From: a virus
IMG/VR virus record: IMGVR_UViG_3300042402_004207
Coordinates: 1-31,118 of that record
Length of the DNA stretch: 31,118 nucleotides
Strand: one strand, 5' to 3'
In this document: piece after piece, positions 3,500 to 31,118 of the stretch
How the letters are laid out: each line of letters opens with the position of its first letter
How positions within the stretch are numbered: the first letter of the stretch is position 1
Notes under the pieces: generated by a model
Database searches by the model: none
Seen by the model: only the letters and a program-made list of their open reading frames with translations
Told to the model about the DNA's origin: nothing
Made by a program: the position numbers and the translations under genes

Positions 3500-6414
3500 G
3501 CGGCGACAACCTTCCGAAGCCCGGCACCTTCATCCCTCTGGGCGACGGGCGCGCAAGCGGCATGCCCGCCCCCGGCACGTTCATCCCTTTCGACAGGAAG
3601 CCGCCGCCTGAAGCGGCGCCCCCCGAAGACCCCGGCTTCCTGTCGAACAGTCCCGACGACAGCTGGCTGTCGTCGGCCGCGAAGGGCACCGGCACCGTAC
3701 TCGGCAAAGCCGTAGCGGCAGTGCCCGGCCTGCCGGGCGACATCGCGGGGCTCCTCGACTACGCCACGACCGGCGTGCAGAGCTACATTCAGGACAAGCC
3801 GCACGCGGAACTGATGAAGCAGCGCGCCGAGGATATCGCGAAGAAGAAAGCCGAAGGCCAGTGGCAGTTCCCGACGTCGGAGGAGCTGTACCGTAAAGGC
3901 GCCAACGCGGTCGGGGCCGGCGAGTACAAGGCCACTTCGGTACCCGGCAAGTACATGATGATCGGCGGCGAAGGCGCCGCGAGCATGCTGATGCCCTTCG
4001 GCGTGGCGGGTAAGGGCGTCAAGGCGGCCCGCGAAGCGTTAACAGCAGGCAAGGGCGCGGGCGCGGCGACGCGGGCAGGCATCGGCGCGACGCTGCCGGG
4101 GGTGGGTGTGGGCGCCGGGGTGACTGCCGGGGCGCACGCGGTCGGAGAGATGACCGAAAGCCCCGGCGCGGCGCTGGCGTTCGGCCTCGGTGCGCCTCTG
4201 GCAGGCGGCGTCGTCAAGGGCGGCTACAACGCCCTGCGCAACCCGGTGCGGGGCGCGCGCGAGCGGTTCATCGACAGCATCAGCGGCGTCGTCGACCCGG
4301 CCAACCCGAACGCCCCCGGCGACAAGCGCCCGGTGATCGCGAGCATTCTTGCCGGCGGCGAAGACGTTGCGCAGACGGGAGCCCCGCGCACGACGGCGCA
4401 GGCGTACCCCGACAACGGGCTGTCGTCCGAGCAGATCCGGCTACTGCAGACATCGCAGGCGACGGACGCCGCCAAGATGCGGATGATGAACGTACAGGAG
4501 CGCCAGCGGCGGGCCAATCAGGGCCAGCTCGAAACGCTCGCACCGGACACCGCCGAACCGTTGGCGCTGCCGCGCGCGGCGCAGGTCGCCCAGCAACAGC
4601 TCGATGATGACGTGCGGCGCCTGACGGCGGCCCTCGACACCGAACGTGACCCCGTGCGCGCGGGTGAGTTGCAGCAGCAGATTGCAAAGGCCGAGAGCCG
4701 GGCGCTCGACGGGCGTGTGAGCGCGCTTTACAACAGCGTCGACCGTGACGGTGTCGCGCAGGTGCCGATGGACAACACCAAGCAGCTCGCGGAACAGCTG
4801 CTGGACAGCCACAAGCCGCTGTACGGTGAGATGGACAAGGGCCTGAAGGGTTGGCTGGAGCGTATTGCCGGCCGCGGTAAAGACGCCGATGGCAATCCCA
4901 ATCCGGGGCTCGGTGAGCGCCTGTCGTATCAGGACGCTGTCGAACTCGACAAGGCAATCGAGAATATGCGCCGGGAAGCGGCGGTTAGCGGCTCGGGTAC
5001 GGCTAGGCAATACGGCCAGCTCAAGAGCGCGATCATGGACGACCTGCCCAACGTACAGCTCCCGCCGACGGCGGCATCCGCGGGGCAAACGCCTGCCGAG
5101 ACTTTGCGCGCGGCCAAGGATCTCTACATTGAGAGCAAAAGACGTTTTGAAAACGCTTACGTCGAAGGCGGGCTCAAGACGACAAAGCCTTACGGCGATT
5201 TCATCATGCAGCCCGAGAAAGTCGCCAAGCAGGTGTTTCAGCCGGGCGACGGCGGCGGCCGCGCAGTTACCGCGTGGCTGGCGGCCGCAGGGCCGCAGGG
5301 CGTTCAGCAGGCGCAGGACATCGCGCTCGCCCGGCTGCACGAGATGCGCCGCGGCCCCGGCGGCGTCATACAGCCGATCTCGCAGGACATGTTGGACCGC
5401 TGGCGCAATCAGTACCGCAGCGCGCTCGGGGCTATCGACACCGCCGCTCCGGGCTTCTCGACGCAGTTCGACAACGCCGCCGCGGCGCAGAGCCGCCTGA
5501 ACGCCTTCACCGAGAGCCGCGCGGCACAATTCCTCGGCGTGCAGGACCGCGACCAGATGTACGGCATGGTCGGCCGCATCCTCGACCGACCCGACGGCGC
5601 GGCGCAGCTCCGCGAGGTGCTGTCGCAATTCCCGCCGACCGAGCGGCAGGTGATCATGGAGGGCGTCCAGCGCGCGGGCTCCCAATACATCGTTCGGCAG
5701 TTTATTTCGCCGAAGAGCGGCGACATTCAGGGCGCGCAGTTCGCGAAGTACGTCACCCGGCACGAGGGAGCGCTACGCGAGCTGTTCGGGCCCAACTACC
5801 AGCGTCTGGAGAACATCGCCAACGAGCTGGCGCGTCACGAGAACGTGCAGAAGGCGGGCATGACGCACGGCTCGTCAACCGGCTTCAACACCCGCGATGA
5901 GCTGAAACAGAAAGCTTCGCAAGATGTCAGCGTTCCCGAGGCAGTGATGTCGACCGGCATCATGCAGCCGGTGTTGGGTACGGTTCCCGCCGCGGCCGTC
6001 ACTGGCGCGATGGGGCTTCGCAACCTTTGGCACCGGCTTGAGAAAGGCCGCCAGAGCACGATCAACGATATCATCACCGACGCCGTCTTCGACCCCGCGG
6101 CAGCGCGGCGCCTCCTTCAGGGGAGATACAAACTTGCGGGGACCCCCGGGCCTGCCATCGCCCCACGCGCCGCCATTCGAGGCGCGCAAGAGGGTATGAG
6201 CGAGATCGAAGAGCGAGAGAACCTGCGCCGGCGCGAAGGCCGCAAGGCCGGCGGCCGGATCGGCGGGGTCGACCACGGTGCCATCGCGATGTCGCTGATC
6301 CGCGCCGCAGAGAAGGCCAAGAAGGGCCACAACACGACGACGCAACCGCTCCTTGAGCAGCCTGATGAAGCCATCACCAAGGCGCTCGCCATCGCCGACG
6401 AGGCCCTGAAATGA
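3496..6414 (+). CDS. Large internal virion / DNA-ejection-type protein (972 aa)
   Basis: No enzyme motif is recognised. The N-terminus carries two copies of a PGTFIP motif (about residues 9-14 and 26-31). Residues about 150-240 are rich in Gly and Ala with several hydrophobic stretches, consistent with membrane-active helices. Most of the rest, about 300-870, is charged, Gln/Ala-rich and probably helical. A GGRIGG motif near residue 918 echoes the GGRIGY repeats of the upstream protein. Its start codon overlaps the upstream stop (ATGA) and its own stop overlaps the next start (ATGA), so the three genes are coupled. Size, composition and position before the tail fibre suggest a particle protein ejected with DNA. 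That is inference; a minor tail protein is the alternative. Confidence 0.7.
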   Translation: MSGDNLPKPGTFIPLGDGRASGMPAPGTFIPFDRKPPPEAAPPEDPGFLSNSPDDSWLSSAAKGTGTVLGKAVAAVPGLPGDIAGLLDYATTGVQSYIQDKPHAELMKQRAEDIAKKKAEGQWQFPTSEELYRKGANAVGAGEYKATSVPGKYMMIGGEGAASMLMPFGVAGKGVKAAREALTAGKGAGAATRAGIGATLPGVGVGAGVTAGAHAVGEMTESPGAALAFGLGAPLAGGVVKGGYNALRNPVRGARERFIDSISGVVDPANPNAPGDKRPVIASILAGGEDVAQTGAPRTTAQAYPDNGLSSEQIRLLQTSQATDAAKMRMMNVQERQRRANQGQLETLAPDTAEPLALPRAAQVAQQQLDDDVRRLTAALDTERDPVRAGELQQQIAKAESRALDGRVSALYNSVDRDGVAQVPMDNTKQLAEQLLDSHKPLYGEMDKGLKGWLERIAGRGKDADGNPNPGLGERLSYQDAVELDKAIENMRREAAVSGSGTARQYGQLKSAIMDDLPNVQLPPTAASAGQTPAETLRAAKDLYIESKRRFENAYVEGGLKTTKPYGDFIMQPEKVAKQVFQPGDGGGRAVTAWLAAAGPQGVQQAQDIALARLHEMRRGPGGVIQPISQDMLDRWRNQYRSALGAIDTAAPGFSTQFDNAAAAQSRLNAFTESRAAQFLGVQDRDQMYGMVGRILDRPDGAAQLREVLSQFPPTERQVIMEGVQRAGSQYIVRQFISPKSGDIQGAQFAKYVTRHEGALRELFGPNYQRLENIANELARHENVQKAGMTHGSSTGFNTRDELKQKASQDVSVPEAVMSTGIMQPVLGTVPAAAVTGAMGLRNLWHRLEKGRQSTINDIITDAVFDPAAARRLLQGRYKLAGTPGPAIAPRAAIRGAQEGMSEIEERENLRRREGRKAGGRIGGVDHGAIAMSLIRAAEKAKKGHNTTTQPLLEQPDEAITKALAIADEALK

Positions 6415-16983: not shown

Positions 16984-17023
16984 AACCTACGCGCAGTGAC
17001 AACCTGTCGTCAAGCCTGATAAG
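16984..17023. promoter_or_regulatory. Divergent promoter region between methyltransferase and VRR-NUC genes, with operator-like repeat
   Basis: The 70-bp gap between divergent genes contains TGACA-ACC-TGTCG (16997-17009), one of four similar inverted repeats in the window. Plus strand: GTGACA (16996-17001), 16 bp, GATAAG (17018-17023), with the start ATG at 17031, so the mRNA may be almost leaderless. Minus strand: TTGACG (17013-17008), 18 bp, TAGGTT (16989-16984), a weak -10. The repeat overlaps both -35 elements. Confidence 0.5.
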
Positions 17024-17291: not shown

Positions 17292-18604
17292 CACTCAGGC
17301 CTGTCCAAGAGCAGGCGATCACCCACATCTACGAACGCAACGAGAGCCTCGTCTTCGCCCGGCCGGGAGCCGGGAAGACAGTCGTGACGCTGACGGCGTT
17401 GAGCGAGATGCTCGCCGACGGCACCGTGCGACGCGTGCTGGTGACGGCACCGCTGCGCGTCGCGGAGCTGGTGTGGCAGCAGGAGGGTGAGAAGTGGGAA
17501 CACCTGCGGCACCTGCGGATCGCCGTGGCGACGGGGACGCCAGCCGAGCGTGATGCGGCCGTCAAGGGAGCCGACATCGTCGTCGTGAACCACGAGAACC
17601 TCGTCGACTTTCTCAAGAAACACAGCAAGGCCTTCGACTGCTTCGTGATAGACGAGCTGTCGAAGTTCAAGGGGCCGACCTCGGCGAAGTGGCGCCCGAC
17701 GCTGAAGCACACGGATCACATGAAGGTCCGCATCGGCCTCACGGGATCGCCCGTGCCGAACGGGCCCGAAGACCTGTTCGCGCAGACGCGCATCATCGAC
17801 CACGGTCGCAGGCTCGGGCGTGACTGGGTCAAGTGGCGCGCGGCGAACATGTGGGAGCAGACGGAGAACGTGTGGAAGTGCCGCAAGGGGACGCTGGAGA
17901 AGACGCTCGCGGCGATCTCCGACATGACGTTCATCCTGTCGCCTGAGAATTGGGCGCCGCCTCCCGTGCGTCACGTCAAGGTCCCGGTCACGCTGCCCCC
18001 CGACATCCGGCGCGTCTACGAGGAACTCGACAAGACGAGCGTCGCCGACATCGAGGGCGAGGTCATGATGCCCGGCGGCCGCGCGCAGGTCGTCAACAAG
18101 ATGCGGCAGGTCTGCGCCGGCTTCGTCTACGACGAGACGGGCGAAGGCAAGCGTCTCGACATGTTCCGCGTCGACGCCATCTGCGATGTCGTCGACATGC
18201 AGACGTCGCCCGTCCTGCTGGTCTACGACTACCGCGAGCAGCTCGACGAGCTGCGGCTGCGCTATCCCGATGCGCCGGTGCTGGGGAGCGGCACGACGCG
18301 CAAGGTCGCGGCGAAGGCCGTCGAGGACTGGAACGCGGGCAGGCTGCGCGTCCTGATCGCGCACCCGGCCGCGTTCAGCCATGGGCTGAACCTGCAATTC
18401 GGGGGGCACATCGTGTGCTGGTGTTCGCTGCCGTGGTCGCTCGATCACTACGAGCAGACGATCATGCGCCTCGCGCGCGAGGGACAGAGCGCACCGGAGA
18501 CGATCAGCTACGCGACCGTCGCCGTCGACACTGTCGAGGAGGATACCGTCTATCCGCGCCTGACGTTCAAGGCCGAGGTGCAGGACGCGGTGTTCAATCA
18601 GTAA
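17282..18604 (+). CDS. SNF2/DEAD-type superfamily 2 helicase (440 aa)
   Basis: The start ATG at 17282 lies inside the nuclease gene, consistent with coupling. N-terminal RPVQEQAI (Q-like motif) precedes Walker A ARPGAGKT (26-33), then VLVTAPLRV (motif Ia, 52-60), the DELS box (124-127) and LTGSPVPNG (motif III, 153-161). The C-terminal lobe ends with YEQTIMRLAREGQ, the motif VI position. The length is typical of phage SNF2-like helicases that act with a VRR-NUC nuclease in replication or recombination. Its 3' end overlaps the convergent sigma-like gene by 11 bases. Confidence 0.9.
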   Translation: MPVTLRPVQEQAITHIYERNESLVFARPGAGKTVVTLTALSEMLADGTVRRVLVTAPLRVAELVWQQEGEKWEHLRHLRIAVATGTPAERDAAVKGADIVVVNHENLVDFLKKHSKAFDCFVIDELSKFKGPTSAKWRPTLKHTDHMKVRIGLTGSPVPNGPEDLFAQTRIIDHGRRLGRDWVKWRAANMWEQTENVWKCRKGTLEKTLAAISDMTFILSPENWAPPPVRHVKVPVTLPPDIRRVYEELDKTSVADIEGEVMMPGGRAQVVNKMRQVCAGFVYDETGEGKRLDMFRVDAICDVVDMQTSPVLLVYDYREQLDELRLRYPDAPVLGSGTTRKVAAKAVEDWNAGRLRVLIAHPAAFSHGLNLQFGGHIVCWCSLPWSLDHYEQTIMRLAREGQSAPETISYATVAVDTVEEDTVYPRLTFKAEVQDAVFNQ

Positions 18605-19199
18605 CGAGCGCCTCTTCGACGTCGTCTACAGTCGCGGTTGTAATGTCTGCCTTGCGTAGATGGCCCCTCATGTATCGAAGGGCTCGGCATTCGAGTTGCT
18701 TCACACGCTCTCCGGACACGCCGAAGTCTTTGCCAATGGCGTTGTAAGTCTCCGCTTCGCCTGTCTCAAGTCCAAACCGGCGGCGCACGATCTGGCGCTC
18801 GCGAGGATTGAGTTTGTCGACGGCGTTTGCGATCAAGTCCCGGTACTGGCGCGCCTCGATCTGGCGCTCGGGGTTGCTGGCCGCCAGCCGCCGGCCGTAC
18901 TCGGCCATCGACATCACGACCTCGGCAACCTTCACAGATTCCGTCATCGTCTGCTGTTCAAATGACCACAAGTCTTCCGGCGCGACGCCCAACGCCTCCG
19001 CTATGTCGAGAGCTGCCTTGCGCCAGTCGCCGTTCTTCATGCGCGGGCTGGAGCGCATGCAGATGAATTCGTTGAGCATCTGATACGTTACGTTCGCGCG
19101 ACGGCAGAACGCCGCGACAGTTGAGAAGCCCTGCTCTTCAATGCGGGTCAGCAGCAGGTTGTTCTTGGCGCGAATGACCAGCCGAACGTCGTTTTCCAT
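18594..19199 (-). CDS. XRE-type HTH fused to sigma-70 region 4: phage transcription regulator (201 aa)
   Basis: Residues about 10-80 look like a lambda-repressor-type HTH (STVAAFCRRANVTYQMLNEF, then IAEALGVAPEDLW). Residues about 129-183 match sigma-70 region 4: LNPRERQIVRRRFGL, then TYNAIGKDFGVSGERVKQLE and CRALRYMRG, the part that reads -35 elements and contacts RNA polymerase. Regions 1 and 2 are absent, so it is unlikely to act as a complete sigma factor. A role as activator or sigma appropriator is inferred. GGAGAATAG precedes the ATG, a match to the polymerase gene's site. It heads towards, and overlaps by 11 bases, the convergent helicase gene. Confidence 0.8.
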   Translation of the reverse strand: MENDVRLVIRAKNNLLLTRIEEQGFSTVAAFCRRANVTYQMLNEFICMRSSPRMKNGDWRKAALDIAEALGVAPEDLWSFEQQTMTESVKVAEVVMSMAEYGRRLAASNPERQIEARQYRDLIANAVDKLNPRERQIVRRRFGLETGEAETYNAIGKDFGVSGERVKQLECRALRYMRGHLRKADITTATVDDVEEALVTD

Positions 19200-19208
19200 T
19201 CTATTCTC

Positions 19209-19445
19209 CTATTTTATTTTTGAGCATCGCAGTTTAGCGCCCGACGGCTTGACCGTCGAGAGGCTCGCGAGGTCAAGCTCGCAGGCCGTCTTCTCGGCGT
19301 TGGCCGCGGCCGCGCGGCCCTTGGGCGTGACGGCCGGCACCCACGCCGTGCCGTCCCACTCCTGCACCTGCCAGTCGGCCTTCGCGACGCCCCAGCAGAG
19401 CAGCACGAAGCCGAAGACAATCAGGGCGAGGATGTAGCGGTTCAC
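19209..19445 (-). CDS. Small exported protein with signal peptide (78 aa)
   Basis: MNRYILALIVFGFVLLCWGVAKA is a clear signal peptide with a VAKA cleavage site before Asp24; the Cys at position 17 does not sit in a good lipobox. The mature part is about 55 residues, Ala-rich, with two Cys (CELD and LRCSK). Function is unknown; exported early phage proteins can affect the envelope or superinfection. The ATG overlaps the upstream stop by 4 bases. Confidence 0.6.
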   Translation of the reverse strand: MNRYILALIVFGFVLLCWGVAKADWQVQEWDGTAWVPAVTPKGRAAAANAEKTACELDLASLSTVKPSGAKLRCSKIK

Positions 19446-19693
19446 AACCGAAACCCGTACTCGCGCGCGGCGGCGGCGTGCAGTGCCGGGGCCATGTACT
19501 CAAGGTCCAGCGCCATGATGAAGCCGTCGAGCATCGCCGGGTGCATGGTCTTCTTGCCGGCGTAAAGCCTGCTGATGTGTTGCACTGAAACGTCCAGCTC
19601 GGCGGCGATGTCCTTCGGCTTCTTGCCCTGCGCTGCCGCGAGCCTCCGCAGGCGCTCGCCCAGAGGCAGGGCAGGATCCGTGATGGACTTCAT
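19442..19693 (-). CDS. XRE-family HTH transcriptional regulator (83 aa)
   Basis: A classic lambda-repressor/Cro-like HTH spans residues about 10-65: ERLRRLAAAQGKKPKDIAAEL, then VSVQHISRLYAGKKTMHPAML. There is no dimerisation or protease domain beyond it, so it is closer in size to Cro than CI. AAGGAAC lies 6 bases before the ATG, and the start overlaps the upstream gene by 4 bases. It could read the TGACA-N3-TGTCA repeats, but the sequence does not show which HTH protein does. Confidence 0.75.
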   Translation of the reverse strand: MKSITDPALPLGERLRRLAAAQGKKPKDIAAELDVSVQHISRLYAGKKTMHPAMLDGFIMALDLEYMAPALHAAAAREYGFRL

Positions 19694-20406: not shown

Positions 20407-20598
20407 TTAACGATACTTCTCACAGGGGTTGTGCCAGTCCATCGGGTGCGACGGGTAGCAGCGGAAGCACATGACCTGCGACAGCCACGCGCTCTTCCCC
20501 GTGCCGTCCGCATAGTCGTAGGCCTCCTGCTCGTAGGCAGCCGCCAGCCGCTCCAGCGCGGCGGCGATGCGCTTGGCCGTTTTTTCACTCACCATCAT
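20407..20598 (-). CDS. Small Cys/His-containing hypothetical protein (63 aa)
   Basis: The start at 20598 is chosen because ATG overlaps the upstream stop (ATGA). The N-terminal helix (EKTAKRIAAALERLAAAYEQ) precedes CFRCYPSHPMDWHNPCEKYR, whose Cys and His could bind one zinc. Function unknown. Confidence 0.6.
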   Translation of the reverse strand: MMVSEKTAKRIAAALERLAAAYEQEAYDYADGTGKSAWLSQVMCFRCYPSHPMDWHNPCEKYR

Positions 20599-20828
20599 TC
20601 AATTCCTTTCAGCGTGGTTTCGATGTCGTTGCGACGCTTCAGCAGCGCGACCTTGAGAGGCTCCCAGACGTAGTCGGGAACCGGCGTCGTGCCGCGGCGC
20701 CAACGGTACACGGTCTTGCGGTCCACCCCGAGAAGGCGCGCGAGGTATTCGGCGTGCTGCGCGCCGTGCAGCATGTACCCTATGCGGGCGAGCCTGCGGG
20801 GGGCGCCGGGGGCCGGGACAGTGGTCAC
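20595..20828 (-). CDS. HTH DNA-binding protein (77 aa)
   Basis: HAEYLARLLGVDRKTVYRWRRGTTPVPDYV (residues about 25-54) is a helix-turn-helix. TVYRW-x2-G-x-TPVP recurs in the protein at 26053-26244, so the two probably share ancestry. The start is GTG, overlapping the previous stop (GTGA at 20825-20828). It is a likely regulator. Confidence 0.7.
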   Translation of the reverse strand: MTTVPAPGAPRRLARIGYMLHGAQHAEYLARLLGVDRKTVYRWRRGTTPVPDYVWEPLKVALLKRRNDIETTLKGIE

Positions 20829-23501: not shown

Positions 23502-23549
23502 ATCTCCTATTCGATGTCCTGATTATAGGGCAGTCGGGGGGCCTGTCAA
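23502..23549 (-). promoter_or_regulatory. Consensus sigma-70 promoter with shared leader, upstream of the DUF6011 gene
   Basis: On the minus strand: TTGACA (23549-23544), 16 bp, TATAAT (23527-23522), 6 bp, leader ATCGAATAGGAGAT (23515-23502). TTGACA lies in a palindrome GCCTGT-TG-ACAGGC. The -10 overlaps the TAA stop of the upstream gene (23525-23523). Confidence 0.85.
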
Positions 23550-24281: not shown

Positions 24282-24311
24282 CTTATACGCCGGGTTTTGA
24301 CAATCTGTCAA
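24282..24311 (-). promoter_or_regulatory. Leftward promoter with operator-like inverted repeat
   Basis: Minus strand: TTGACA (24311-24306), 18 bp, TATAAG (24287-24282), 24 bases before the ATG at 24257. TTGACA-N3-TGTCAA (24297-24311) is a perfect 15-base inverted repeat covering the -35. It probably drives the whole leftward early block. Confidence 0.8.
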
Positions 24312-24346: not shown

Positions 24347-24370
24347 TTTTCGACGACAAACTGTCGAAAA
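24347..24370. promoter_or_regulatory. Operator-like palindrome
   Basis: TTTTCGAC (24347-24354) and GTCGAAAA (24363-24370) form a perfect 8-bp inverted repeat; its centre is CGACA-AAC-TGTCG (24354-24366), the same N3-spaced layout as the promoter-proximal site 45 bp away. Confidence 0.6.
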
Positions 24371-24701: not shown

Positions 24702-25187
24702 ATGCACCCTTGGATCATTGCCCGCACCCCCGGCGCGCGGGAGGTTATGGAGGCCGGCGATATCGCGGCCTTGCGCCGGCAGAAGATGCCGCCCGAAGTC
24801 GTGCAGGCGCTGCTGGCCGACGCCCGGGCTTACGATGTGATCGCCAAGGCGTACGGGGTGACGTATCAGATGGTCGCCCAGATCAAGACCCGGCGCCTGT
24901 ACGCGCACGTCCCGTACAAGGGGGCAATTCCCCGTGGCGCCCGCGCCGACGCTGCAACAGTGAGGGAGATCTTCCTCGACCCCTCACCGGCACGTGAGAT
25001 CGCTGCTCGGCACGGCGTCAGCTTGAGCGTGGTCCGCCAGATCAAGCAGCGGGTCTCGCATGAGAGTGTCACCCGCAATCTGATAGCGCCGCCGTCGGGA
25101 CATGCAACCTTGCGCGCTGAAGTGCGCGCGATGAAGGAGCGGCACAAGGCCGAGCTGACGGCACTGCTGCAGAGGGGGATGGTATGA
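24702..25187 (+). CDS. Protein with two HTH repeats (161 aa)
   Basis: Two copies of one HTH module: VVQALLADARAYDVIAKAYG with VTYQMVAQIKTRR (about residues 33-65) and VREIFLDPSPAREIAARHG with VSLSVVRQIKQR (about 85-118). The C-terminal helix (RAEVRAMKERHKAEL) may dimerise. TTGGAG lies 11 bases before the ATG, a long spacing. No enzyme domain is present. It is the first gene right of the AT-rich control region, so origin binding or regulation of the divergent operons is a reasonable guess. Confidence 0.75.
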   Translation: MHPWIIARTPGAREVMEAGDIAALRRQKMPPEVVQALLADARAYDVIAKAYGVTYQMVAQIKTRRLYAHVPYKGAIPRGARADAATVREIFLDPSPAREIAARHGVSLSVVRQIKQRVSHESVTRNLIAPPSGHATLRAEVRAMKERHKAELTALLQRGMV

Positions 25188-25651
25188 AGCGCAGGGTTTT
25201 CAGTGACGATGAGGTGCGCGCGATCTTGGCCGACGCGCGGTCGCAAGGCGTGATCGCAGCCGCGTACGGTACGTGGACGCATGTCATCTCGGACATCAAA
25301 CGCCGCCACACGTACAGACACGTACGGTTTAGCGGGAAAGTAGCGCGCTACCGCCCCCCGAAGAGGGTGAAGACCCCTCGACCCCCGGAGATCGCGCGCT
25401 ACCAGAGGCTGCCCGTCGATCCCGGGCCCCAGTACAGCCTTCTGCCAGTGGAAGGCCGCAGGGTCTTCAGTGACGACGAGGTGCGCGCGATCTTGGCGGA
25501 TCCTCGGATGTACGGCGAGATCGCAGCCGAGTACGGCGCGTGGAAGCACGTCATCGGGGACATGAAGTGGCGCCGCTCGTATCGGAACGTGCCGTTCGAC
25601 GGGGTGATCGTCCGGTACCCGTCGAGGAAGAGAAGCCGACTGACAGTTTGA
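25184..25651 (+). CDS. Protein with two HTH repeats from a recent internal duplication (155 aa)
   Basis: The start overlaps the upstream stop by 4 bases. Two copies of RRVFSDDEVRAILAD, then IAAxYG-x4-VI-x-DIK-like helix and YRxVxFxGxxxRY, occupy residues about 3-55 and 92-145, joined by a Pro-rich linker. At DNA level 25191-25230 and 25458-25497 match at 38 of 40 bases. The family is the same as in the upstream gene. The protein is strongly basic. The stop codon lies inside the -35 of the next promoter. Confidence 0.75.
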   Translation: MKRRVFSDDEVRAILADARSQGVIAAAYGTWTHVISDIKRRHTYRHVRFSGKVARYRPPKRVKTPRPPEIARYQRLPVDPGPQYSLLPVEGRRVFSDDEVRAILADPRMYGEIAAEYGAWKHVIGDMKWRRSYRNVPFDGVIVRYPSRKRSRLTV

Positions 25652-25695
25652 CATGTGGATAAGTTGGCCGTATAAGGGTTCATCGAATAGGAGAT
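25648..25695 (+). promoter_or_regulatory. Consensus sigma-70 promoter with shared leader
   Basis: TTGACA (25648-25653), 17 bp, TATAAG (25671-25676), 5 bp, leader ATCGAATAGGAGAT (25682-25695). TGACA occurs twice (25641 and 25649), N3 apart but as a direct rather than inverted repeat. The -35 contains the TGA stop of the upstream gene. Confidence 0.85.
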
Positions 25696-25984: not shown

Positions 25985-25998
25985 GAGCCTGCCGCTGA

Positions 25999-26036
25999 AG
26001 AGGGCCAGCCGAAGGGCTGGCCCTCTTTGTCGTTTT
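25999..26036 (+). terminator. Rho-independent terminator
   Basis: AGAGGGCCAGCC (25999-26010) and GGCTGGCCCTCT (26015-26026) form a perfect 12-bp stem with a GAAG loop, followed by TTGTCGTTTT. It begins 14 bases after the stop codon of the 94-aa gene. Confidence 0.92.
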
Positions 26037-26052: not shown

Positions 26053-26244
26053 ATGACTGAGATCGCAACCGACCTCTCCCCGCGGTACCTGAACCGATTG
26101 CTGGACGAGATGGACATCCTCAACAGCGAACTGGCAATCCTCGCGGGCGTCAGCGGCCGCACGGTGTACCGATGGCTGGCGGGGGAGACGCCCGTCCCGC
26201 GCTCGGTCGTCGCCATGCTTGAGCTGCTCAAGGCGAAGGCGTGA
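26053..26244 (+). CDS. HTH DNA-binding protein (63 aa)
   Basis: LNSELAILAGVSGRTVYRWLAGETPVPRSVV (residues about 24-53) is a helix-turn-helix with the same TVYRW and TPVP signature as the protein at 20595-20828. It opens the rightward packaging operon after the terminator. A TAGAGT -10-like element lies 6 bases upstream without a matching -35. It could regulate the packaging genes. Confidence 0.7.
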   Translation: MTEIATDLSPRYLNRLLDEMDILNSELAILAGVSGRTVYRWLAGETPVPRSVVAMLELLKAKA

Positions 26245-26453
26245 TCTGGCGATGGCTCGCCGTAATGCTCGCTCTGCCGACGCTGGGGCTGATCCTGTTC
26301 CTGCCGCTGATGTGGCCGGTGTGGCTCGGCCTCTGGGGTTTCCTCGTGATCAAGGGCTTCGGAAGCGCGGCCGCAATGGGCGCCCGGAAGACACGTACTC
26401 GGCTGAAGTTGCGGCCGACATCTGCAGGCGCCTCGCGGAAGGGGAAACGCTGA
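26241..26453 (+). CDS. Small membrane protein overlapping terminase small subunit; holin candidate (70 aa)
   Basis: The GTG start overlaps the upstream stop (GTGA). The N-terminal 40 residues are highly hydrophobic (WLAVMLALPTLGLILFLPL then WPVWLGLWGFLVIKGFG), forming two close TM segments or one hairpin, followed by a basic tail. Third codon positions in this frame are strongly G/C up to about 26375, where the terminase frame has mostly T or other bases, so this is the likely coding frame there. The size fits a small holin, but no family is recognised. Confidence 0.6.
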   Translation: MIWRWLAVMLALPTLGLILFLPLMWPVWLGLWGFLVIKGFGSAAAMGARKTRTRLKLRPTSAGASRKGKR

Positions 26454-26881
26454 AGAACGTGTGCAAGGACATTGGGATCGCGAGGCAGACGGTCTACACT
26501 TGGGTGCTTGACAATCATCAAGGTTTCGCTGACGCCTACGCACGTGCTCGGCACCTGATGGCGCTCGGCTGGGCCGACGACCTCGACGAGATCGCGCGCG
26601 ACAGGCGCGGCGACTTCGTGGTGAACGAGGAGGGCAAGCTGGTGCCCGACATGGAGCACATCATGCGGTCGCGCTTGCGCATCGACACGCGCAAGTGGCT
26701 CCTCGGCAAGGTGCTGCCACGGGTCTACGGCGACAAGGTCATCACCGAGATCACCGGCAAGGACGGCGGCGCCATCGAGATGCAGGCGACGCGGATCGAC
26801 GTGCTGGCGCTCGACCCCGAACAGAGGGATCAGTTGAAAACCATCCTGCTGCAGGCGACGAAGGGAAAGACGGAGGAATAG
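26252..26881 (+). CDS. terS: Terminase small subunit (up to 209 aa; start uncertain)
   Basis: From about residue 40 the protein matches a common phage TerS family: GRPEDTYSAEVAADICRRLA, a putative DNA-binding HTH (TLKNVCKDIGIARQTVYTWV), DAYARARHLMALGWADDLDE and a C-terminal DTRKWLLGKVLPRVYGDKV. It binds phage DNA and starts packaging. The ATG at 26252 is the first in frame, but codon use upstream of about 26375 favours the overlapping membrane-protein frame. GTG at 26312 or 26321 is also possible. Confidence 0.82.
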   Translation: MARRNARSADAGADPVPAADVAGVARPLGFPRDQGLRKRGRNGRPEDTYSAEVAADICRRLAEGETLKNVCKDIGIARQTVYTWVLDNHQGFADAYARARHLMALGWADDLDEIARDRRGDFVVNEEGKLVPDMEHIMRSRLRIDTRKWLLGKVLPRVYGDKVITEITGKDGGAIEMQATRIDVLALDPEQRDQLKTILLQATKGKTEE

Positions 26882-26883
26882 CG

Positions 26884-27165
26884 GTGAAACTGTATTATCT
26901 ATCTTTCGCGGACCCGACTAAACCCAGAGGGGAGCAGTGGCTGGGCGGCGCTTACGTCGAGGCAGAGTCAGCTATTCACGCGATGCTTCACGAATCGCGC
27001 AGGCACGGGTGTAACCCCGGCGGGGAGGTAGTGAGCATCGAACTTCCTTTCGACGCTCCTATCAGGGACGACTACCGCAACCGGCTTCTGGATGATGCTA
27101 TGTTGCGAGCGGCAGGCCCTGACGGCGACGGTGTGCTGGTCGACCTTGATGGCAACGAAAGGTAG
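26884..27165 (+). CDS. Hypothetical phage protein (93 aa)
   Basis: The GTG start follows GGAGGAATAGC two bases after the terS stop. The protein begins KLYYLSFADPTKPRGEQWLG and continues AYVEAESAIHAMLHESRRHG. Small proteins with this beginning are common beside terminase genes in my experience, with no known function. The remaining sequence is acidic. Confidence 0.65.
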   Translation: MKLYYLSFADPTKPRGEQWLGGAYVEAESAIHAMLHESRRHGCNPGGEVVSIELPFDAPIRDDYRNRLLDDAMLRAAGPDGDGVLVDLDGNER

Positions 27166-27173
27166 AACCGAAG

Positions 27174-27371
27174 ATGAGAGCCGTTAGCGACCTGCACTTT
27201 CACATCGGCGGCAAGGCCTACACGTTCGAGCCTGAAACGGTCACTACGCGCAGCGATTTGGCGCTGCTGTTGCCGCTGTTCATGGCCCTGACGCAGCCGC
27301 GCGGCACCTTCGACGTCGAGGCTTACGTCGACGAGTACGCCCTCTGGCATTGTTTTCGCACGGTCGAGTGA
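27174..27371 (+). CDS. Hypothetical protein (65 aa)
   Basis: No family is recognised. The sequence opens with DLHFHIGGKAYTFEPETVTT, a beta-rich segment, and has a short helix rich in Leu (LALLLPLFMALTQ) that is not long enough to be a confident TM. The stop overlaps the next ATG (TGATG). Confidence 0.55.
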   Translation: MRAVSDLHFHIGGKAYTFEPETVTTRSDLALLLPLFMALTQPRGTFDVEAYVDEYALWHCFRTVE

Positions 27372-27604
27372 TGTACGCTTGCACCATGAAGCCGCCTGTC
27401 CTGCCTGCCCCCGAGCTGCTGCGCGCCGCCTTGCGCGCGGGCATCACGGTCGGCTGGGCCGGCACGGGCGAGGCCTACGCAGAGGTCACTGACTCGGGCG
27501 ACCCCGGGCAGCGCGCGATTTTCGCGGCGCTGATGGCCAACGCCTACGCCCCCGACATCATGTACGGCTGCTACTACGCCGGCGACTACACGAGGCTGCA
27601 ATGA
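27371..27604 (+). CDS. Hypothetical protein (77 aa)
   Basis: The start at 27371 shares one base with the upstream stop; an alternative ATG is at 27386. Much of the protein is small residues with aromatic Tyr near the end (APDIMYGCYYAGDYTRLQ). No motif is recognised. Confidence 0.55.
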   Translation: MYACTMKPPVLPAPELLRAALRAGITVGWAGTGEAYAEVTDSGDPGQRAIFAALMANAYAPDIMYGCYYAGDYTRLQ

Positions 27605-27780
27605 CCCCCCTCTGCACCGACTGCGCCCACAGCTGGCGCAACAGCGACGGCATCCTGATGTGCGGGCGCCCGACTACAACGCCGGGGCCGCGTTACTGCT
27701 ACGCCGAACGCTTCGGCCCACCGCAGGCCGACAGGGAAATCTGCGGCCCCCGCGCCCAGTATTTCGAGGCCAAGACGTGA
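27601..27780 (+). CDS. Short zinc-finger-like protein (59 aa)
   Basis: It starts with ATGA overlap at 27601 and ends with GTGA overlap at 27777. Cys at positions 5, 8, 21, 33 and 48 (CTDCAH, MCGRP, YCYAER, CGPRAQYFEAK) suggest one or two bound zinc ions. I recognise this Cys pattern as common among small phage proteins. It is below 60 codons, so it is often skipped. Confidence 0.7.
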   Translation: MTPLCTDCAHSWRNSDGILMCGRPTTTPGPRYCYAERFGPPQADREICGPRAQYFEAKT

Positions 27781-27890
27781 CCAACGCCGAGATCCGGCAG
27801 TCGCACTACGACCACTGGCACCTGCGCGAGGAGATCACCAAGCGCGTGCAGGCCAACACGCCCTCGCGCACTCGCCGTAAGCGGGTATGA
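27777..27890 (+). CDS. Very small protein coupled to terminase (37 aa)
   Basis: The GTG start overlaps the upstream stop and the TGA stop overlaps the terL ATG. The protein is basic and helical (TNAEIRQSHYDHWHLREEI). Both ends tightly coupled, without gaps, argue that it is real. Function unknown; it may help the terminase complex or only carry translation through. Confidence 0.5.
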   Translation: MTNAEIRQSHYDHWHLREEITKRVQANTPSRTRRKRV

Positions 27891-29497
27891 ACCTAGCCGA
27901 CCTCAACCCGTTCGAGACGCTGCGCGAGATCGAGCGCGTCGAGTGCGAGACGTCGCTCTATGAGTTCGTGCAGAAGGCTTGGAAGTACGTCGACCCGTCG
28001 CCGTTCACGCCGGGATGGCCGCTTGAGGCCATGTGTGAGCACCTCGAAGCGGTCGTCGACGGCGACATCCGCAAGCTGATCATCAACATCCCGCCGCGGT
28101 GCGGCAAGTCGAGCATCGTCAGCGTCTGCTTCCCGGCATGGGTCTGGACGCAGCGCGAGATCTCGCCGACCAGCGGGCCGCAGGTGCCGCTGCTGCACGC
28201 CTCCTACGCGATGTCGCTGGCGATGCGCGACAGCGTCAAGACGCGCCGGCTGGTCGAGAGCCCGTGGTACCAGCGCCTGTGGGGCCACCGCTTCCACCTC
28301 GTCGGCGACCAGAACACCAAGGGCCGCTTCCAGAACGACAAGCGCGGCGAGCGCCTGATCACGGCCGTCGACGCGCGCGTCACGGGTGAGGGCGGCAACA
28401 TCATCGTCGTCGACGACCCGAACGCCGCCAACGAGGCGATGTCGGAGGCGTTGATCGAGACGACGAACGAGTGGTGGGACGGCACGATGTCGACGCGTCT
28501 CAACGATGCGCGCACCGGTGCCTACGTCGTCATCCAGCAGCGGCTGGGCGAGGAGGATCTCACGGGCCACATCCTCGACACCGACGAGGGCTGGACGCAT
28601 CTCATGCTGCCCATGGAGTTCGAGCCCGAGCGCGCCTTCACGACGAGCATCGGCTGGGACGACCCGCGCACCGAGGAGGGCGAGCTGCTGTGGCCCGAAC
28701 GCTTCGCCGAGGAGCAGGTCGAGGTCCTGAAGAAGCGGCTGGGCCCGTGGAAGGCCGCGGGGCAGCTGCAGCAGCGTCCCGAGCCGAAGGGCGGCGGCAT
28801 CATCAAGCGCGACTGGTGGCAGCTGCACGATGCGCCACACTTCCCGCAGTTCGACTACGTCGTGGCGAGCCTCGACACCGCCTTCACCACGAAACAGGAG
28901 AACGACTTCAGCGCGCTGACCGTGTGGGGCATCTTCACGAGCGACACCGTCGCGCAGCCCTCGAAGCAGGTCATCAGAGGCGAGCGCCTGACCAACGTCG
29001 ACCCTCGCGAGTACGGCAATCAGGCACCCAAGGTCATGCTGATGAACGCGTGGCAGGAGCGGCTTGAGCTGCACGACCTCGTCATGCGCGTTCAGAAGTC
29101 GTGCAAGGAGATGAAGGTCGACCGGCTTCTGATCGAGGACAAGGCCGCAGGCCACAGCGTCGCGCAGGAGCTGCGCCGCCTCTTCGGCTACGACGGCTTC
29201 GCCGTCCAGCTCGTCAATCCCGGCGCCCTCGACAAGGTCGCGCGCGTCTACGCCGTGCAGCACCTGTTCGCCGAGGGCATGATCTTCGCGCCCAACCGCC
29301 AGTGGGCCGAGATGACCATAGGACAGACCACGACGTTCCCCCGCGGCAAGCACGACGACCTCGTCGACACGATGAGCCAAGCCCTGACGCACCTGCGCCA
29401 AGCCGGGATGCTGACGCGCAGCAGCGAGCACATTTCCGAAGTGGGCGAAAGCCTTCGACACAGGGGCGCGCCACCGGCTTCGTTGTACGGGATCTGA
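27887..29497 (+). CDS. terL: Terminase large subunit (536 aa)
   Basis: N-terminal packaging ATPase: Walker A PPRCGKSS (69-76) and Walker B IIVVDDP (172-178). C-terminal RNase H-like nuclease: ASLDTAF (D330), IEDKAAG (E417/D418), and KHDDLVDTM (D490/D491), giving the metal-binding acidic set. The enzyme drives DNA into the procapsid and cuts concatemers; its length is usual. It lies seven genes after the HTH gene that opens the operon, and is coupled to the small gene upstream (ATGA). Confidence 0.93.
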   Translation: MNLADLNPFETLREIERVECETSLYEFVQKAWKYVDPSPFTPGWPLEAMCEHLEAVVDGDIRKLIINIPPRCGKSSIVSVCFPAWVWTQREISPTSGPQVPLLHASYAMSLAMRDSVKTRRLVESPWYQRLWGHRFHLVGDQNTKGRFQNDKRGERLITAVDARVTGEGGNIIVVDDPNAANEAMSEALIETTNEWWDGTMSTRLNDARTGAYVVIQQRLGEEDLTGHILDTDEGWTHLMLPMEFEPERAFTTSIGWDDPRTEEGELLWPERFAEEQVEVLKKRLGPWKAAGQLQQRPEPKGGGIIKRDWWQLHDAPHFPQFDYVVASLDTAFTTKQENDFSALTVWGIFTSDTVAQPSKQVIRGERLTNVDPREYGNQAPKVMLMNAWQERLELHDLVMRVQKSCKEMKVDRLLIEDKAAGHSVAQELRRLFGYDGFAVQLVNPGALDKVARVYAVQHLFAEGMIFAPNRQWAEMTIGQTTTFPRGKHDDLVDTMSQALTHLRQAGMLTRSSEHISEVGESLRHRGAPPASLYGI

Positions 29498-29503
29498 AAA
29501 ATC

Positions 29504-29540
29504 ACAGTCGAACTGGGCTCGACTGTTGACAGACTGTCAC
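29504..29540. promoter_or_regulatory. Tandem inverted repeats between terL and portal, including operator-like site
   Basis: ACAGTCGA (29504-29511) pairs with TCGACTGT (29519-29526), 7-base loop, without a T-tract. Directly after it TGACA-GAC-TGTCA (29527-29539) is a perfect copy of the N3-spaced palindrome. TTGACA at 29526 has no good -10 at 16-18 bp. Confidence 0.55.
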
Positions 29541-29592
29541 TATTCTGAATGACGCCCGGTGTGTTATCCTTGCATTCCCACGAGGTTTCTGA

Positions 29593-31118
29593 ATGGCGTT
29601 AGTGCCGGGGTTGAACCCCAACATCCGCTTGGTCCAACCTGACCCCGACGAGCTTCCGCCGGGCGAGGATATCGTCGTCGAGAACGCGCCCGAGGGCGCC
29701 GACGTCGAGCACCTCGACGACAAGGGCAACGTCATCCAGATCGAGCACGACGACGGCTCCATCACGATCAGCCTCGACGGCAAGCCGGTCGAGGAGAACG
29801 CCAACGAAGACAACGCCGAATGGTTCGGCAACATCGTCGACAAGATCGACGAGGGCGAGCTGTCGCGCATCGCCGACGAGCTGATCCGCGGCATCGGCGA
29901 CGACAGCGACAGCCGCAAGGACTGGATCGAGGACCGCGCGCAGGGCATCAAGCTGCTGGGCCTGAAGATTGAGGTGCCGGGCATCGGCGGTTCCGCCGAG
30001 GGCGCGCCTGTCGAGGGTATGAACCGCGTCCGCCACCCGCTGCTGCTCGAAGCCGTGCTGCGCTTTCAGGCGAACGCGCGCTCCGAGATGCTGCCGACCG
30101 ACGGCCCGGTCAAGATCAGGATCGACGACAACAACGGCACGCATCAGACCAACCAGATGGCTGATGCGCTGGAGAAGGATCTCAACCACTACCTGACGGC
30201 TATCGCGACCGAGTACTACCCCGACACCGACCGCATGCTGCTGATGCTCGGCTTCGGCGGCCTCTCGTTCAAGAAGGTGTATTTCTGCCCGCTGCGCAAC
30301 CGGCCTGTCAGCGAGACGGTCGACGCCGAAGACCTGATCGTCAACGCGGCCGCGACCGACATCCGCAGCGCCAAGCGCGCGACACATCGCGTGATGATGC
30401 GGCCCTCGACGGTGAAGCGCCTGCAGATCCTCGGCGTCTATCGCGACGTGCAGCTCTCGACGCCACTGCCGCAGGATCTCGACAGCGCGCAGCGCGAGAA
30501 GAAGGCGCAGCAGGGCGTCGAACCCGAGGCGCTGAACCCGGAGGATCGCGACCGCGAGATCTTCGAGTGCTACTGCGAGCTGAACATCAAGGGCTTCGAG
30601 CACAAGTGGAAGGGCAAGGAGAGCGGCCTCGAAATCCCGTGGCGCGTGACCATCGACGTCAGCTCGAAGCAGATCCTGTCGGTCGTCCGCAACTACGACG
30701 AGGACACCGCAGAGCTGCCCGAGGCGCGCCCCGTGTTCGTCCCGTACATGTTCGTGCCGGGCTTCGGCTTCTACCCCATCGGCCTCCTTCACATCCTCGG
30801 CAACACGACCAACGCGATCACCGCGGCGTGGCGCGAGCTGCTCGACGCGGGCATGTTCGCGAACTTCCCGGGCTTCCTGTTCAGCGACGCCGGCGGCCGC
30901 CAGAACACCAACATCTTCCGCGTCCCGCCGGGCGGCGGCGCGCTCGTGAAGACGGGCGGCATGCCGCTCAATCAGGCGATCATGCCGCTCCCTTACAAGG
31001 AGCCGAGCGGCGCACTGATGACGCTTGTCGACAACATCGCCACGACCGGCTCCCGGCTGGGCGGCACGAGCGAGCAGCAGGTCGGCGAGGGCCGCGCCGA
31101 CGCGCCCGTGGGCACGAC
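29593..31118 (+). CDS. Portal protein, P22-like; 3' end outside window (508 codons seen)
   Basis: The ATG at 29593 follows GAGG. The first 110 residues are acidic and low in conserved motifs. DWIEDRAQGIKLLG (about residue 111), then RHPLLLEAVLRFQANARSE and YYPDTDRMLLMLGFGGLSFKK match P22-type portal proteins, which form the dodecameric ring through which DNA passes. EGRADAPVGT lies at the right edge; the remaining C-terminal part is cut off. It sits right after terL, the usual order. Confidence 0.85.
   Translation, partial: MALVPGLNPNIRLVQPDPDELPPGEDIVVENAPEGADVEHLDDKGNVIQIEHDDGSITISLDGKPVEENANEDNAEWFGNIVDKIDEGELSRIADELIRGIGDDSDSRKDWIEDRAQGIKLLGLKIEVPGIGGSAEGAPVEGMNRVRHPLLLEAVLRFQANARSEMLPTDGPVKIRIDDNNGTHQTNQMADALEKDLNHYLTAIATEYYPDTDRMLLMLGFGGLSFKKVYFCPLRNRPVSETVDAEDLIVNAAATDIRSAKRATHRVMMRPSTVKRLQILGVYRDVQLSTPLPQDLDSAQREKKAQQGVEPEALNPEDRDREIFECYCELNIKGFEHKWKGKESGLEIPWRVTIDVSSKQILSVVRNYDEDTAELPEARPVFVPYMFVPGFGFYPIGLLHILGNTTNAITAAWRELLDAGMFANFPGFLFSDAGGRQNTNIFRVPPGGGALVKTGGMPLNQAIMPLPYKEPSGALMTLVDNIATTGSRLGGTSEQQVGEGRADAPVGT

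Follow-up and report, generated by a model that had tools for sequence, protein, structure and literature searches.

Known phages that redirect the host RNA polymerase at the -35 element do so with separate parts, i.e. an upstream DNA-binding activator, an anti-sigma factor or flap mimic, and region 4 of the host sigma factor. Lambda CI bound at OR2 activates PRM by contacting sigma region 4. In phage T4, gp33 occupies the β flap of the polymerase as a mimic of sigma domain 4 and recognises no DNA sequence (PMC2988020), and AsiA and MotA are a two-protein system in which the host region 4 is remodelled (PMC6755090). The RinA/ArpU/Ltr late regulators of Gram-positive phages are proteins of ~130 amino acids (aa) (PMC13123087). 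Here, we analysed a 31,118-nucleotide stretch of viral DNA with 65% GC, the IMG/VR virus fragment IMGVR_UViG_3300042402_004207 (hereafter, the window), and in particular one of its genes, whose product combines a lambda-repressor-like (XRE) DNA-binding domain and a near-housekeeping sigma-70 region 4 in a single chain; this fusion recurs in several unrelated phage groups and its halves have apparently been swapped as modules.

Domain architecture of the fusion protein

The presence of region 4 in the fusion protein is beyond doubt, and the domain is full-length. Pfam Sigma70_r4 matched residues 126–178 of the 201-aa protein with an E-value of 2.5e-14 (53 bits, cut-off 24.1), the RpoD, RpoS and SigA profiles covered residues ~105–189, and a SigA region 4 in the PDB was matched with an E-value of 7e-12. 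Fold comparison of residues 107–193 of the model with sigmaA/sigma70 region 4 yielded a Z of ~11 and a root-mean-square deviation of 1.9. The XRE half is weak when judged from the single sequence but firm through its relatives: Pfam gave only below-threshold matches to HTH_26 (E-value 0.19) and HTH_35 (0.12), while a held-out profile built from the N-termini of the non-window lineages found the window protein with an E-value of 3e-24 (best of 2000 shuffles, 0.05), and the relative L039 matched both HTH_3 (1.9e-9) and Sigma70_r4 (3.2e-20). Modelled alone by AF2, the domain adopted an XRE-type helical fold, namely a five-helix helix-turn-helix (HTH), with a predicted local distance difference test score (pLDDT) of 86.5, and was aligned with SinR, P22 c2, CylR2 and 434 repressor/Cro at Z of 7–8. 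The full-length model was of moderate confidence (pLDDT 67.7), and the relative orientation of the domains was not read from it. Some RpoD tblastn alignments extended to residue 16; the degenerate region 3 that this suggested in place of XRE was rejected on the basis of the fold and the held-out profile.

Profile scans of the protein matched region 4 only and found no region 2; as residues 1–84 are XRE and residues 85–107 a linker, no space is left for one. The fusion protein is therefore not a sigma factor. In the whole 31-kb record, the fusion gene alone passed the Sigma70_r4 cut-off, with a sub-threshold region 4-like stretch (20 bits) observed at 24963–25052 (+); two adjoining proteins of repeated HTH-like units are encoded at 24702–25187 and 25184–25651 (+). 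These results bear out the initial annotation, which had proposed from the sequence a lambda-repressor-like HTH at about residues 10–80, a sigma-70 region 4 at residues 129–183, the lack of region 2, and the only sigma-like gene in the window, except that the C-terminal domain now spans residues 108–184.

Recurrence of the fusion in divergent phages and exchange of its halves

Because protein scans reached no further than close relatives (L001–L005, 80–100% identity), IMG/VR was searched with degenerate DNA patterns combining an N-terminal or mid-domain XRE motif with a region 4 signature at a fixed spacing. Two pattern scans yielded L039–L041 and L042, and a third yielded L053/L054/L057–L059, L055 and L056. 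These relatives are in frame, without stop, and 25–35% identical to the window protein across both halves, except for L056, of which the 5′ end is cut. All relatives are virus fragments, with no complete genome among them. Thus, the architecture first read in the window gene, for which the initial annotation had suggested a profile search in phages, occurs in six divergent phage lineages of differing genome organisation, indicating an established protein kind rather than a local accident. Its genomic setting varies, the fusion gene being directly upstream of the terminase genes in L056, between the terminase subunits in L039/L041, and, in L060 as in the window, among leftward genes that oppose the rightward terminase and portal genes.

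Matches of an early degenerate viral scan beyond the known cluster were rejected as chance, judged by frame and stops. In cultured-phage and plasmid records, the XRE half and region 4 were not found together; only region 4 was matched, and the tblastn matches there, mostly full sigma factors or region-4-only proteins, were rejected as relatives. A protein-based search of bacterial genome contigs found no relative, a negative that carries no weight because host prophages were not surveyed, and a literature search for the pairing of XRE with region 4, or for a region 4 lacking region 2, returned no matching paper. Structure search detected A0A0F7L6V6 in BFVD, a 200-aa protein from an uncultured marine virus that shares 24% identity with the window protein across 188 columns. 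It is annotated automatically as a 'Sigma-70 region 3 domain protein' and is probably an unrecognised member of the fusion group.

Comparison of the fusion genes of L003 and L004 revealed that their first 237 nt, i.e. the XRE half, are identical, with ~80% identity thereafter, whereas L003 and the window share 99% identity over the region 4 half. The junction falls at codons 79–80, at the XRE/linker boundary just upstream of the linker. L003 thus joins the XRE half of one relative to the region 4 half of another, so the halves are exchangeable modules. In L042, an XRE-only sister gene (5500–5949, +) lies directly upstream of the fusion gene with start/stop overlap and ends where region 4 would begin.

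Palindromes at promoters

Four copies of the palindromic core GACA-N3-TGTC are present in the window versus 0.47 expected, and none of 100 shuffles contained four or more, a figure valid for this pattern only, since the pattern was chosen after its discovery at a promoter; unbiased palindrome counts were swamped by GC-rich coding periodicity. All four copies (16998, 24299, 24355 and 29528) fall outside the called genes, which leave only 5.2% of the window free, and three of them lie in the sites designated O1, O2 and O3 (Table 1). O2 covers the -35-like hexamer of a second early promoter, GTGACA-16-GATAAG. The centre of O3 is 32 bp before the extended -10-like TGTTATCCT, i.e. upstream of the likely portal transcript start by the distance given in Table 1. 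Sigma-70-like promoters scoring at least 10/12 are all leftward except that at 25648, and a 12/12 sigma-70 match, TTGACA-16-TATAAT at 23549–23522 (-), points into the leftward early genes.

The sites are shared with relatives. The 56.9-kb record of L004 (G001) contains three core copies, corresponding to those at 16998, 24299 and 29528, and L002 has the core at the equivalents of 16998 and 24299, with a further copy at its counterpart of the rightward promoter at 25648. At the common sites the arms are retained while the 3-bp spacers differ between relatives (GAT, AAT, GAA; GAC, ATC; ACC, AGC). At the portal site, the window and G001 have no similarity upstream; similarity starts exactly at TTGACA and is continuous to the portal ATG.

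Table 1. Coordinates of the fusion gene, promoter-linked palindromes and neighbouring features (window positions unless a relative is named)
Feature	Position	Strand	Remarks
Fusion gene, coding sequence	18594–19199	-	201 aa, ATG start
AGGAG ribosome-binding site of fusion gene	19206–19210	-	
XRE (lambda-repressor-like) DNA-binding domain, residues 10–84	18948–19172	-	held-out profile, AF2 model, fold alignment
Linker, residues 85–107	18879–18947	-	low model confidence
Sigma-70 region 4 (4.1, 4.2 and preceding helix), residues 108–184	18648–18878	-	Pfam, fold comparison
Mosaic fusion genes compared	L003:2141–2743 versus L004:8001–8603		nucleotide identity
Operator O1, perfect palindrome TTTGACA-GAT-TGTCAAA	24296–24312	.	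overlaps -35 of leftward early promoter
Leftward early promoter TTGACA-18-TATAAG	24282–24311	-	-35 inside O1
Operator-like GACA-N3-TGTC, just upstream of leftward promoter	24355–24365	.	window only
Operator O2, TGACAACCTGTCG, before nuclease/helicase genes	16997–17009	.	kept in L001, L002, L003, L004/G001
Operator O3, TTGACAGACTGTCAC, in the terminase large subunit/portal interval	29526–29540	.	centre at about -44
Extended -10-like TGTTATCCT before portal gene, without -35 hexamer	29562–29570	+	block identical in G001
Rightward promoter-like TTGACA-17-TATAAG	25648–25676	+	L002 equivalent holds exact operator core
Intrinsic terminator before terminase genes	25996–26029	+	present in L004 and L002
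Terminase small (26219–26881) and large (27887–29497) subunits	26219–29497	+	late block start
Portal gene, downstream of O3, cut by record end	29593–31118	+	phrog_1216, E-value 7e-15

Conservation of region 4 residues

Numbered by their E. coli sigma-70 equivalents, R554, R562, E585, R586 and Q589 are retained in the window protein, while R584 is replaced by G and R588 by K, leaving five of the seven DNA-contact residues conserved. At the -35 base-reading positions R584/E585/Q589, the window has G, E, Q, and L055 and L056, which retain nearly all contact residues, have R, E, Q, while L004 has G, A, E; this 80%-identical ortholog carries R554L, R584G, E585A, R588Q and Q589E. The equivalents of R562, F563, T572 and R586 are retained in all lineages. 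Judged by these alignments, the structural core of region 4 looks better conserved than its base-reading face, and a role of region 4 as a -35 reader is weakened, the reading residues being altered in L004 and the palindromes kept. The conservation of DNA-contact residues, which the initial annotation had named as a check, holds for most positions in the window but breaks down in L004. Its view of a regulator that sits on operators and works at the -35 region of promoters is in part sustained, by the fusion in six lineages, by the conserved palindromes at -35s and before portal, and by the terminase neighbours in L056 and L039/L041; the placing of region 4 itself on a -35 is not established, given the L004 changes.

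Gene content around the fusion gene

The record encodes a family A DNA polymerase, a primase-helicase, an exonuclease, a cytosine methyltransferase, a VRR-NUC-like nuclease, a helicase, terminase and portal. The terminator ahead of the terminase genes is strong, so late transcription may require readthrough or a later promoter. Three small HTH proteins are encoded at 19442–19693 (83 aa, XRE), 20595–20828 (77 aa) and 26053–26244 (63 aa), and may be further repressors or Cro-like proteins of the phage.

A possible mechanism and its alternatives

We tentatively propose, at somewhat less than an even chance, that the fusion protein is a modular phage regulator, with XRE on operators and region 4 directed to the polymerase, that represses early promoters and activates the portal promoter. 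Strong sigma-70 elements at the early promoters imply that the host holoenzyme probably drives the early phase, in which the fusion protein is probably also produced. Its XRE half would bind palindromic operators, for which the TTGACA-N3-TGTCAA sites are the best candidates; these sites are present in the sequence, but their pairing with this protein we infer. Its region 4 may dock on the flap of the host RNA polymerase or replace sigma-70 region 4. As it has no region 2, the protein cannot open DNA alone and must act with host holoenzyme. Where an operator lies over an early -35, binding would switch the promoter off; at the -35-less portal promoter, the O3-bound protein could supply the missing upstream anchor and so activate the structural genes. 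Of the two roles put forward in the initial annotation, late activation and displacement of host sigma, either may hold; the operator layout favours an early-repress/late-activate switch. A bolder form, which we consider rather unlikely, is a one-protein sigma appropriation, in which the same operator shuts early promoters and opens a -35-less late promoter through the protein's own region 4, with the XRE and region 4 halves swapped so that the DNA target and the host polymerase can be changed separately.

Several points weigh against the proposed switch. The fusion gene is 7–8 kb from the terminase genes and on the opposite strand, and the window is only a fragment of a phage genome. The extended -10 TGTTATCCT and the missing -35 were read by eye from the sequence. 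The operator arms of L004 are unaltered alongside its five region 4 substitutions. The operators need not belong to the fusion protein, as the window also encodes the 83-aa XRE protein and other small HTH proteins, and the GACA-N3-TGTC core was not found in the examined loci of five other fusion lineages.

The last two points lead to the strongest alternative, namely that the palindromes are owned by another repressor, e.g. the 83-aa XRE protein, and that the fusion protein acts at unrecognised sites, which we regard as a serious possibility, if not a probable one. Several small HTH proteins being conserved beside the fusion gene conforms to it. The absence of the core elsewhere, however, is a weak argument, as XRE specificity normally drifts between lineages; the absence fits such drift and equally fits palindromes belonging to another protein. 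Moreover, L056 has the palindromes TTAGAA-TGG-TTCTAA and TGTTAT-GTT-ATAACA (492–609) in the gap that separates its fusion gene from that of the terminase small subunit. In both, the arms are 6 bp and the spacer 3 bp long, i.e. the geometry of TTGACA-N3-TGTCAA beside a fusion gene, which hints at the fusion protein as the owner of the sites.

An unlikely explanation is that the protein is a takeover factor, whose region 4 vies with that of sigma-70 for the flap and so lowers host -35-dependent transcription, while XRE anchors the protein or autoregulates its gene. In every lineage the RFG core and the equivalents of T572 and R586 are retained while the base-reading residues vary, as would be expected of it, and T4 offers precedents in gp33, which mimics region 4 on the flap (PMC2988020), and in AsiA, which remodels sigma region 4 and assumes its job (PMC6755090). 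General displacement, however, needs no dedicated, conserved DNA-binding half, and the recombination of the two halves as modules also argues against it.

It is less likely still that region 4 is a second DNA reader for TTGACA, with the palindrome, two TTGACA head to head, as its target. Although the operator half-sites match the -35 consensus and the window protein retains five of the seven contact residues, the equivalents of R554, R584, E585, R588 and Q589 are altered in L004 with the operator arms remaining the same, and L055 and L056 have canonical contact residues yet lack this palindrome in the examined loci. Finally, that the protein is half of a split sigma factor like T4 gp55/gp33, with its region 2 partner outside the fragment, is highly improbable: it would suit a region 4 without region 2 on a fragmentary record, but the 56.9-kb G001 contains no second Sigma70_r4 match above cut-off, region 2 not itself having been searched for.

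Comparison with known systems and significance

Bacterial two-hybrid assays use an artificially tethered region 4. If the proposed switch is true, the fusion protein would be a natural counterpart of this tethering, would make testable whether a tethered region 4 alone can substitute for the sigma-70 -35 contact, and would provide a mechanism for a protein group annotated, where at all, only as a sigma fragment.

By size and by position in the window, the fusion protein is not a RinA/ArpU/Ltr regulator, and its sequence similarity to them is weak. The fusion gene is beside terminase in L056 and L039/L041, but its position agrees with that of genes of that group only in L056, and not in the window; the protein is 201 aa long, includes an XRE half, has a region 4 far more similar to that of housekeeping sigma, and its match to phrog_248 ('transcriptional activator') is weak (E-value 0.0026) and confined to the region 4 part. 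With T4 AsiA/MotA it may share the principle of an upstream-bound phage activator taking over the -35 contact, but here through a single protein with its own region 4. Like T4 gp33, it has a region 4-like module without region 2, for which use of the flap would be expected; unlike gp33, it devotes one half to reading DNA sequence, and its similarity to region 4 is visible in the protein sequence. It resembles lambda-type CI/Cro (XRE/HTH_3) in its N-terminal fold and, if the operators are its own, in palindromic operators over -35 and in an operator close to -42, the place from which OR2-bound CI activates PRM, but differs in having its own region 4 rather than touching that of the host, and, from CI, in being without a C-terminal dimerisation or cleavage domain. 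By analogy, the fusion protein would act most like a lambda CI equipped with a region 4 of its own, or like a gp33 that is guided by DNA.
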